A DNA stretch of 64,000 bases from Marmoricola sp. (GTDB taxonomy: Bacteria > Actinomycetota > Actinomycetes > Propionibacteriales > Nocardioidaceae): NCBI GenBank assembly GCA_025965195.1, contig JAOPXK010000098.1, positions 21,335-85,334 on the forward strand, in the 5' to 3' direction. The position numbers and the translations under genes were made by a program. Position 1 is the first letter of the stretch, and each line of letters starts with the position of its first letter. A model generated the notes under the pieces. It saw only the letters and a list, made by a program, of their open reading frames with translations, ran no database searches and was not told the DNA's origin. Shown here piece after piece: positions 3,659-7,590 of this stretch.

Positions 3659-4045
3659 CTAGCCGGTTGGGCGGAAGGAATCGTAGCGCGCGGCGGACAC
3701 GGGCGCGAAATCGGAGGGCGCGAGATCGCGCCCGGCCCCGAGATCAGCGCCTTCGAGCCGGGCCAGGGAAGCGCTCGACCGTGAGCCTCGTCACGGCATT
3801 CCGGCCTTGATCGATCCAATAGTCCGAAATGCACCCGCCGGGTACATTCGCGGGCAACCCGGGTTACTTCCGAGCCTCCTGTTCGGCGTACTTTGGGGAA
3901 CACAACAAAATCGCCTGCAACGACGCCCGCGATCTGCAGAACTCAACGACACTGTTCCGTCGATACGCTCGACGGCCGACGACGCTTTTCCCCCGGACTG
4001 AATCCGTGGACGGGCCCGTCGCGAATGCTCGAGAGGGAAACTGGC

Positions 4046-5878
4046 ATGACTGCCGATACGTCGACCACCACCGCAACAGATGCGGCCGCTCCGACCAGCC
4101 ATGAGGGCATCCTCAATTGGGTCAACGAGATCGCGGCACTGACCCAGCCCGAGAACATTCACTGGGTGACCGGCTCCGATGAGGAGTGGACCGAGCTGAC
4201 CGACGCACTCGTCGCGTCCGGCACCTTCATCAAGCTCGATGAGAAGAAGAAGCCGAACTCCTACTACGCGGCCTCCGACCCCACCGACGTGGCGCGCGTC
4301 GAGGACCGCACCTACATCTGCTCGGTCGATGAAAAGGATTGCGGGCCCACCAACAACTGGATGGACCCGAACGAGATGAAGGACATCATGCGCGGGCTGT
4401 ACGCCGGCTGCATGAAGGGCCGCACCATGTACGTCATCCCGTTCGTGATGGGTCACGTCGAGGCCGAGAGCCCGATGTTCGGCGTGGAGATCACCGACTC
4501 GGCGTACGTCACCGCCTCGATGCGGGTGATGGCGCGCGTCGGCACCAAGGTTCTCGCCCGGATGGAGGAGCTCAACGCAGACTTCGTGCCCGCCCTGCAC
4601 TCGGTCGGCGCCCCCCTCGAAGAGGGCCAGGCCGACGTCAAGTGGCCCTGCAACGACACCAAGTACATCGTCCAGTTCCCCGAGGAGCGGATGATCTGGA
4701 GCTTCGGTTCCGGCTACGGCGGCAACGCCCTGCTCGGCAAGAAGTGCTACGCGCTCCGCATCGCCTCCGTGATGGCGCGTGACGAGGGCTGGCTCGCCGA
4801 GCACATGCTGATCCTCAAGCTCACCTCGCCGGCCGGTGTCACCAAGTACATCGCCGCCGCGTTCCCGAGCGCCTGTGGCAAGACCAACCTCGCCATGCTG
4901 GCGCCGACCATCCCGGGCTGGAAGGTCGAGGCGATCGGCGACGACATCGCCTGGATGCGCATCGGCGACGACGGCCGGCTGTGGGCGGTCAACCCGGAGT
5001 ACGGCTTCTTCGGCGTTGCTCCCGGCACCAACCAGGACACCAACCCCAACGCGATGAAGACCATCGAGATCGGCAACTCGGTCTTCACCAACGTCGCGCT
5101 CACCGATGACGGCGACGTCTGGTGGGAGGGCCTGGAGAACCCGCCGGCCCACGCAACCTCGTGGAAGGGCGAGCCCTGGACCCCGGAGTCCACCGAGCTC
5201 AGCTCGCACCCCAACTCGCGCTACTGCACCCCGATCAAGCAGTGCCCGATCCTGGCGCCGGAGTACGACGACCCGCGTGGTGTCCCGATCGACGCGATCC
5301 TCTTCGGTGGCCGTCGCAAGACGACCATTCCGCTGGTGACCGAGGCCCGCGACTGGGTCCACGGCACGTTCATGGGCGCGACCCTGTCGTCCGAGACGAC
5401 TGCTGCCGCGGTCGGCGAGGTCGGCATCGTGCGGCGCGACCCGATGGCGATGTTGCCGTTCATCGGCTACAACGCCGGTGACTACTTCAACCACTGGATC
5501 ACGATCGGCAAGGACAACGACGCCTCGAAGCTCCCGAAGATCTTCTACGTCAACTGGTTCCGTCGTGACGAGGACGGTGGCTTCCTGTGGCCGGGATTCG
5601 GCGAGAACAGCCGGGTCCTCAAGTGGGTCATCGAGCGCATGGACGGGATGGCTGAAGGCGTCGAGACCCCGATCGGCTACGTGCCGGCGCCGGGTGCGCT
5701 CGACGTCGACGGACTCGACGTGACTCCCGAGCACATGGCGCAGGCCCTCAAGGTCGACATCGAGGAGTGGAAGGCCGAGATCCCACAGATCACCGAGTGG
5801 TTCGAGAAGTTCGGCGACTCGCTGCCCGCCGTGCTCTGGACCGAGCTCGACGGCCTGAAGGCACGTCTGGGTCTCTGA
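4046..5878 (+). CDS. pckG: Phosphoenolpyruvate carboxykinase (GTP)
   Basis: [48 protein letters not shown]...[15 protein letters not shown]...GDDIAWM...; full-length GTP-PEPCK. Confidence 0.96.
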
Positions 5879-6013: not shown

Positions 6014-7057
6014 GTGAGCATCGAGTACGGGGCAGAGCATCGGCGGCTTCTGGAAACGCGTGCGAGCGTGCTCTACCGGGAGGCGGTCGAGCACGGCTCC
6101 GTCCAACGCGATGACCCGCGTTTCGCCGACGGCACCGTCGACCGTCCGAGCCTCGATCTGCTCACCGATCTCGGGCTGCTGGCCCTGGATCCGACCACCG
6201 GCAGCTACGTTCCCGTGGACCCAGCGACCGTCCAGTCCCGCGTCGTCGCCCCGATGGGCCAGATGGCGGCCGACCTGCTCACCGAGTCGACCAGCTGGGC
6301 CAACACCTTCGGCGCGCTCGGCCAGGTCTTCCGGCGTACGGCGCTGGGCGGCAGCCCGATCACCGAGCTACGCGGCTACGCCAACATCAACCGTTTCATC
6401 CAGGCCGCCGTCGGCGACGCCGAGAAGGAGCTGCTCACGGCTCAGCCGGCGGGCGCCCGGTCGGCAGCAACGCTGAAGGTCGCCATCGAGCGCGACCTCC
6501 GCGCCCTGGAACGCGGCATCACGCTGCGCACGCTCTATCAGCACTCGGCCCGCCGGAGCATCGCGACGCGGGAGTACGCCGAGGAGGTGAGCCGGCACGG
6601 GGCCGAGATCCGCACGCTCGACGAGTTCTTCAACCGGCTGATCGTGGTCGACCGGGTGCTCGCGATCGTGCCGGGCGTCGAAGGCACTCACGTCGCGATC
6701 GCGATCCATGACAAGAGCCTGGTCGCCTACCTGGTCGACATCTTCGACCGCTACTGGGAGCGCGCCCGCGCCTTCGCCGACCGTGAGGAAGCCACTGCCC
6801 GCGACATCGCGGACGACGTGCACAACATGACGGTGCGGATGCTGGTCGAAGGCCACAGCGACCACGCGAGCGCGAAGCGAGTCGGGGTCAGCACCAGGAC
6901 CTACGCGGGCTACGTGGCCGCGCTCAAGGACGAGTACGGCGCTCAGACCCGCTTCCAGCTCGGCTATGCGATGGGCCAGCTCGAGGCCAAGAACGGTCGA
7001 CGACGGAATTCGCAGCTGGAGCCTCCGGAGGAGAACAACAGGATGATCGTGCCCTGA
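6014..7057 (+). CDS. LuxR-like helix-turn-helix transcriptional regulator (atypical, 347 aa)
   Basis: C-terminal ...MLVEGHSDHASAKRVGVSTRTYAGYVAALKDEYGAQTRFQLGYAMGQ resembles the LuxR-type HTH of actinobacterial regulators; N-terminal helical region with no recognised sensor domain. Confidence 0.65.
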   Translation: MSIEYGAEHRRLLETRASVLYREAVEHGSVQRDDPRFADGTVDRPSLDLLTDLGLLALDPTTGSYVPVDPATVQSRVVAPMGQMAADLLTESTSWANTFGALGQVFRRTALGGSPITELRGYANINRFIQAAVGDAEKELLTAQPAGARSAATLKVAIERDLRALERGITLRTLYQHSARRSIATREYAEEVSRHGAEIRTLDEFFNRLIVVDRVLAIVPGVEGTHVAIAIHDKSLVAYLVDIFDRYWERARAFADREEATARDIADDVHNMTVRMLVEGHSDHASAKRVGVSTRTYAGYVAALKDEYGAQTRFQLGYAMGQLEAKNGRRRNSQLEPPEENNRMIVP

Positions 7058-7070
7058 AAAAGATCGAGGG

Positions 7071-7098
7071 CGGCAGACCCGAGGTCCGCCGCCCTCTA
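7071..7098. terminator. Hairpin between convergent regulator and small-peptide gene
   Basis: gagggcggcagacccgaggtccgccgccctc inverted repeat (arms gagggcggc / gccgccctc). Confidence 0.55.
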
Positions 7099-7173
7099 AC
7101 GAGACGGCCGGGGGGGTGGCTGGACGTTGTGCCGGGGGGCGACTTGGCGTCCTCGTCTCGAGTCTTGGAAGGC

Positions 7174-7326
7174 CTAGTCCCAGCCGGTGTCCAGCATTGA
7201 GTGATAGGTCGTACGGGATGCGTGGTCGCTGACTGCTTGCGCGGGGGCAGCAACCGCACCGACCACGAAGCCGAGAGCGACTATGGCGGCGGCTGCCGCT
7301 TTCGCCACCGAGGAGAACTTGCTCAT
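7174..7326 (-). CDS. Small secreted peptide precursor (50 aa; predicted Sec signal peptide + ~19-aa mature peptide)
   Basis: Manual translation from ATG 7326: MSKFSSVAKAAAAAIVALGFVVGAVAAPAQA|VSDHASRTTYHSMLDTGWD*; positively charged N-terminus, hydrophobic core, AQA cleavage-like site; GAAGGG upstream as RBS. Below the ORF-track length cut-off. Confidence 0.6.
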   Translation of the reverse strand: MSKFSSVAKAAAAAIVALGFVVGAVAAPAQAVSDHASRTTYHSMLDTGWD

Positions 7327-7501
7327 GGTGATGACCCTTCGTTTGGCCCGGTTGCTCCGGCCGGGCTAGGTCAAGTGTCGGGCACGGTCAGCCGCAGGCC
7401 CATAGCGCGGCGACCTCATCAAAGTGCACTGCATGTTTCTGCAACTTCTTGTAGACGCAACAACACCCCGAGACCTGGTGGACTCGGGGTGCTGTGACCT
7501 G

Positions 7502-7590
7502 CGGAGGTGGGGAGATTTGAACTCCCGACAGGGATTAACCTGAACCCGCTTAGCAGGCGGGCGCCATAAACCGGACTAGGCGACACCTCC
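7502..7590 (-). tRNA. tRNA-Ser (anticodon GCT)
   Basis: Reverse complement GGAGGTGTCGCCTAGTCCGGTTTATGGCGCCCGCCTGCTAAGCGGG...GAGTTCAAATCTCCCCACCTCC; long variable arm, anticodon loop CTGCTAA. Confidence 0.94.

Follow-up and report, generated by a model that had tools for sequence, protein, structure and literature searches.

A probable peptide autoinduction pair in Nocardioidaceae, with relatives in Streptomyces and a phage

By comparing genomes we found that a regulator with two HTH domains is paired with a small gene whose predicted exported product carries a conserved D-x-x-W core, that some precursors hold this core in tandem copies, and that an operator stands at a fixed spacing in the promoter of the peptide gene. 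The two genes probably form a peptide autoinduction pair resembling quorum sensing, in which the exported, processed and re-imported peptide would activate the regulator and switch on the peptide gene. In this model, whose export, processing, import, binding and activation, like the identity of further targets, we infer, the small gene would give a precursor that leaves the cell through Sec; removal of the signal peptide and, in most species, trimming would yield a short D-x-x-W peptide (DTGWD here). The peptide would build up outside the cell, be taken up again, probably by an oligopeptide ABC transporter, and bind the PLD-fold domain of the one-component regulator, which would then bind a TGCA-box palindrome and, acting as a class I activator, turn on the peptide gene, so that the loop would be a positive one.

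The gene pair and its recurrence

The initial annotation of the window (the whole stretch of 64,000 nucleotides analysed here) placed a 50-aa ORF on the minus strand, convergent with a regulator gene on the plus strand and separated from it by a hairpin. Both ORFs lie exactly where it had put them, and the hairpin is present:

6014..7057, plus strand: regulator, 347 aa, GTG start; N-terminal winged HTH, linker helix, PLD-fold domain, C-terminal HTH
7066..7096, no strand: GC-rich hairpin between the convergent genes, no long T run
7174..7326, minus strand: peptide precursor gene, 50 aa, unannotated, ATG start; Sec-type signal, linker, core DTGWD
7234..7326, minus strand: codons of the signal peptide (residues 1-31, ending in AQA), called by a heuristic; conservation of A29 and A31 is 90% or higher
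7177..7191, minus strand: DTGWD core (residues 46-50), the part that is conserved; alignment A2 shows no variation at D46 or W49
7335..7341, minus strand: CGAAGGG, ribosome binding site for the peptide gene
7501..7590, minus strand: tRNA-Ser(GCT), next to the peptide gene on its upstream side, in a conserved position; context only

The precursor reads MSKFSSVAKAAAAAIVALGFVVGAVAAPAQA followed by VSDHASRTTYHSMLDTGWD (ORF and translation check, 7174-7326, minus strand). The hairpin, with a z of only -1.7 for the whole stretch, is probably a bidirectional terminator of the convergent genes.

A search of 298 genomes of the order gave 99 regulator orthologues (47-71% identity), all of which fall in one family and are spread over five genera. 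The recurrence predicted for the pair was borne out: in 96 of the 99 neighbourhoods an ORF starting with ATG runs convergently to the regulator and combines a signal-like N-terminus with a D-[TSIYFL]-x-W tail (in three cases the variant A[TS]SW or SDW), and 76 of 80 named loci, a set partly overlapping the 99 orthologue genomes, have a peptide ORF; such ORFs also adjoin regulators in Streptomyces and in a phage. Two of the three peptide-less orthologues (L017 and L083) lack the operator as well, and the third locus is cut at a contig end; at least one of the four remaining named loci (L162, the same locus as L306) has a peptide ORF with a GTG start. A strict filter, which asked for an ATG start, a length of 25-130 aa, a basic N-terminus, a hydrophobic stretch and a D[TSIYFLA]xW tail, matched 92 of 98 regions 3' of the orthologues. 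Among controls it matched 1 of 1224 other segments from these loci and 0 of 1960 regions resampled by a Markov model; these control rates rule out a chance ORF.

In an alignment of 36 precursors the D and W are invariant and the alanines of the Sec cleavage site nearly so, signal peptides being judged by a heuristic (basic N-terminus, hydrophobic run, AxA site). Nocardioidaceae precursors are 39-90 aa long. Since the core starts 0-2 residues past the cleavage site in 86 of 96 precursors, mature peptides are possibly only about 10 aa long (DTSWGRVALP at L027). Two to four cores occur in 16 of the 96; the precursor of Nocardioides iriomotensis (L008/L156) has four SDTGWNGT units. Among these 96 the window precursor belongs to a minority type with a linker ahead of a C-terminal core. 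Of the tail of about 19 residues originally put forward as the signal, the C-terminal DTGW(D) is conserved, whereas the preceding linker is variable or absent in relatives, and the DTGW(D) core, not all 19 residues of VSDHASRTTYHSMLDTGWD, probably makes up the minimal signal.

When peptides were tested against NCBIfam, Pfam and PHROGs, no family scored above its cut-off. As a single query the 50-aa peptide returned weak matches, yet these adjoined regulators. With a peptide profile, the best match in 24 regulator-bearing members of the family was usually the adjacent gene (E down to 1e-18); in 24 regulator-less members matches mostly ended at the signal peptide, with E of 5e-5 or weaker, the exception (G199, 9e-8) also covering the signal peptide only. 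Two g4 genomes, G087 and G281, gave a longer but weak match.

The regulator and its probable ligand

The regulator was described in the initial annotation as having no recognised sensor domain; this has to be revised, as it has a recognisable sensor-like phospholipase-D fold comparable to that of archaeal TrmB and TrmBL2:

6344..6781, plus strand: PLD-fold (TrmB-like) sensor-like domain with conserved TAQP, RG..RTLYQH and GAEVRTLDEFFNR blocks

The protein comprises, approximately, a winged HTH (aa 1-70), a linker helix (71-108), the PLD-fold domain (111-256) and a LuxR/GerE-like HTH (257-327). Relatives span 302-359 aa, the nearest named ones belonging to Nocardioidaceae MAGs, Nocardioides and Marmoricola. 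An AlphaFold2 model built with 44 homologues has a pLDDT of 87, and its top Foldseek matches are TrmBL2 and TrmB (E 5e-14 to 8e-8), then phospholipase-D-fold proteins; over the whole chain TM-scores against the TrmB matches are low (0.3-0.45) and the rmsd is high. Sequence profiles agree weakly with a TrmB-like fold (hmmsearch E 0.001; Pfam DUF7436/TbsP_N below cut-off). Conservation peaks in the PLD domain (TAQP, RTLYQH, GAEVRTLDEFFNR) and in the last HTH, and we propose that the PLD-fold domain binds the peptide. For the C-terminal HTH of the window regulator Pfam gives only HTH_23 at 0.099; phage and Streptomyces members match GerE below cut-off (3.6e-4 in the phage member). Pfam scans found no TPR, no autoinducer-binding domain and no response-regulator domain.

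The protein resembles two known groups in part. With TrmB/TrmBL2 it shares an N-terminal winged HTH and a PLD-like effector domain, but it is bacterial, has an extra C-terminal LuxR-like HTH and is linked to an exported peptide. LuxR/GerE regulators (LuxR solos) may be akin to it in the C-terminal HTH, but its sensor is different, and the Pfam scans detect no AHL autoinducer-binding domain.

A regulator of this fold might, like TrmB, sense a sugar or phosphosugar and be functionally tied to PEP carboxykinase, the peptide being one output. Such a metabolic ligand is possible because the nearest solved relatives, the TrmB proteins, are known sugar binders and because the PEP carboxykinase gene adjoins the regulator: it directly precedes it in the window (3893-5878), and in about 70 of the 80 named Nocardioidaceae loci it occupies the same strand some 150 bp upstream. 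We nevertheless consider this reading quite unlikely, as no operator is found upstream of the regulator and the Streptomyces and phage relatives retain the D-x-x-W peptide in quite different surroundings.

Co-variation between peptide and regulator offers a lead. Among 46 sister pairs, permuted within strata of divergence, core residue 5 tends to change together with regulator positions 225, 195, 170 and 229, which all belong to the PLD domain (domain p 0.017). Glycine at core residue 5 goes with L225 in 56 cases and non-glycine with non-leucine in 19, with 18 mixed. Tree-based counts again rank the same PLD region high, while single sites fail correction; after divergence control the co-variation of core and sensor domain is only suggestive. 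The proposal of a candidate signalling pair has gained from the recurrence, the coding-like core and the conserved operator; that the regulator reads the peptide is the part we still infer. It is very improbable that the peptide is instead read outside the cell by another receptor, with the regulator setting only its production: although the locus has no linked import system (the genome encodes seven oligopeptide-binding proteins), no membrane receptor was seen as a constant neighbour, and the regulator is the sole constant partner of the peptide across the genomic settings examined.

The peptide promoter and its operator

Upstream of the peptide gene we predict two elements:

7415..7443, minus strand: predicted operator palindrome TGCA-N6-TGCA-N-TGCA-N6-TG(C/A)(A/G), sole copy in the window
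7372..7379, minus strand: GACACTTG, a -10-like element; the centre of the operator is 50 bp away

The upstream tRNA-Ser was trimmed off the promoters before the motif search; a first promoter motif had proved to be the 3' end of this tRNA and was removed. The operator motif reached an EM log-likelihood of 1102, against about 50-70 for shuffles, and at least 12 of its 16 positions were present in 78 of 96 peptide promoters (28 of them perfect) versus 15 of 1920 shuffles. From the motif centre it is about 103 bp to the peptide ATG and 50 bp to a -10-like ACA(A/C)T element, and the interquartile range of the latter distance is 0 bp. Relative to the inferred start of transcription the operator stands at about -62, which we read as the spacing of a class I activator (compare CRP at -61.5). 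Since the operator occupies this position on the peptide promoter and is absent upstream of the regulator itself, positive autoregulation of the peptide gene seems to be the likely arrangement.

The TGCA operator is missing from 18 of the 96 peptide promoters (L062 and L089, for example), some of them with ADTGWGW-type precursors, and these promoters may use a different operator. Exact half-pattern searches in 40 relatives marked the peptide locus repeatedly, with other matches near the level of reversed controls, and a longer pattern applied to six close genomes returned the peptide promoter each time plus one doubtful extra site; in these genomes neither search gave further target genes above background beyond the peptide promoter. 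Streptomyces peptide promoters have a related box, TGCAGGAACATGATGCA, in common at about -115. Five Kribbella-like genomes (L293/L319, L295, L296, L297, L320) carry a complete or near-complete TGCA palindrome in one place each, with no regulator nearby; in L293 it adjoins a TrkA-C-like gene.

Relatives in Streptomyces, on plasmids and in a phage

Streptomyces-like relatives were found with a regulator profile and their loci counted by inspection; the labels Streptomyces-like and Kribbella-like rest on relatedness and on plasmid or phage matches. In 22 of the 23 Streptomyces-like genomes inspected a D-x-x-W precursor lies beside a regulator paralogue. Their clusters contain one to five paralogous regulators, with the precursor divergent from them, and a single precursor may hold up to 10 tandem cores: 10 DSTW (L264), 7 DVGW (L263), 7 DSGW (L262) or 5 DPGW/DPSW (L270), other cores being DTVW, DLGW, DSKW and DSIW. 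The units of more distant relatives include four DGNTWPGAV (L277), DGAGWQ (L280) and GSTIWG (L268).

The expectation of coding-like substitution held, most strongly in the core. A first pN/pS test was biased low because its pairs had been picked by peptide similarity. A stronger test compares copies within one precursor: in the core, whose D and W are set and whose residue 2 is restricted by the search pattern, 43% of synonymous but 0.5% of non-synonymous sites differ (pN/pS 0.011), whereas in the four codons after it the figures are 52% and 44% (pN/pS 0.85). A released peptide would be expected to leave this pattern, with four residues under purifying selection and the spacers almost unconstrained, and cores that vary across species and hardly inside one precursor are as expected for pherotypes. 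The layout recalls the yeast alpha-factor precursor, a signal peptide followed by several copies of one short peptide with divergent spacers; sequence and receptor are unrelated, and the likeness is an analogy only.

Regulator homologues occur in 122 plasmid records, nearly all of Streptomyces; on the plasmid of NBC_00467 an annotated hypothetical protein downstream of the homologue ends in GDSAWG. In the Streptomyces phage Chymera (KU958700.1, L323, 2041-3316) gp29 is a regulator homologue (hhalign probability 99%), and gp30, divergent from it, reads MGQRVIKIVTAVLFSAAAVVGVTATAQA followed by DPGWGRSAPEVTTTVTPTPSEPTNDPGWG, with two DPGWG copies. Viral contigs searched with the Nocardioides profile gave no match, and with the phage protein three (L325-L327), which retain both DPGWG copies at a regulator identity down to 68%. 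The phage pair is located between an integrase and a Cro/CI-type gene. As in arbitrium (AimR-AimP of Bacillus phages), a phage-borne regulator is accompanied by the precursor of an exported short peptide in an immunity/integration region, and an arbitrium-like role in lysogeny is a natural candidate hypothesis. Unlike an AimR-type receptor, however, Chymera gp29 shows no TPR, and its searches returned no PHROG or other phage family, only the sub-threshold GerE match.

Could the peptide be an effector, an antimicrobial or other secreted and possibly modified product, with the regulator controlling its gene in response to another ligand? An operator on the peptide promoter would suit such control, and RiPPs also have repeated-core precursors; one Streptomyces precursor, and no other, matched the thiovarsolin RiPP at 22.5 bits, below the cut-off of 35. 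We hold this to be unlikely: no maturation enzyme was noticed as a constant neighbour in the loci read by inspection, the core has only 4-5 residues and no charge except its Asp, only 2 of 99 genomes have the regulator but not the peptide, and in these the operator has gone too, and the phage pair sits at a place for decision circuits, not toxins. Autoinduction by the peptide is the reading we prefer.

The parallel drawn in the initial annotation with Rgg-SHP and PlcR-PapR stands for functional analogues and falls for relatives. As in the RRNPP systems (Rgg-SHP, PlcR-PapR, NprR-NprX, AimR-AimP), a small Sec-exported propeptide with a short conserved core lies beside a cytosolic regulator of 250-500 aa in an autoinduction layout, and phage versions exist. 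By the RRNPP membership criteria of PMC10075063, the propeptides (39-90 aa; range 10-100), their heuristic Sec signals, the receptors (302-359 aa; range 250-500) and the adjacency of the genes agree; TPR repeats, by contrast, were not found in the receptor by Pfam scans, its fold being wHTH + PLD + HTH, and because of this the regulator is not an RRNPP receptor. Further differences are the TrmB/PLD-fold receptor with two HTH domains, the occurrence in Actinomycetota, not Bacillota, the up to 10 tandem cores per precursor and the D-x-x-W core.

Signalling in Actinomycetota is attributed mainly to enzymatically made small molecules such as gamma-butyrolactones, and encoded peptides are credited to Bacillota (PMC10075063); many actinomycete LuxR-type proteins have been called intriguing for want of a known signal (PMC4748050). 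Searches of the literature, core strings included, found no description of the present system, with partial coverage, so that this absence is not proof. We lean towards an undescribed, phylum-wide pheromone class of Actinomycetota, which would combine TrmB/PLD-fold two-HTH receptors with precursors of exported Trp-peptides (D-x-x-W or, for Kribbella-like genomes, C-terminal Cys-Trp) and with pherotypes that differ between species; Streptomyces would have multi-copy precursors of the alpha-factor kind, and temperate Streptomyces phages would carry a version comparable to arbitrium. If so, such LuxR-type regulators would have a ligand, in a family extending across Nocardioides, Streptomyces, their plasmids and a phage; a synthetic signal of four to five residues could be tested at once and might offer a handle on silent antibiotic clusters; and the phage would have a decision system unrelated to arbitrium.

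Divergent from distant regulators in Kribbella-like genomes (L137, L139, L140, L141), and from a second Nocardioides paralogue (L271), lie genes for exported peptides with C-terminal Cys-Trp: PCVVCW, ACEVGVACW, ACQALVCW, ACAEASACW and PCIGCW. These peptides are candidates for a second signal type within the same receptor family. In three Streptomyces loci (L252, L257, L258) four or five tandem paralogous regulators accompany one precursor ending in DTVWD, and the extra regulators may be listeners without a signal of their own.
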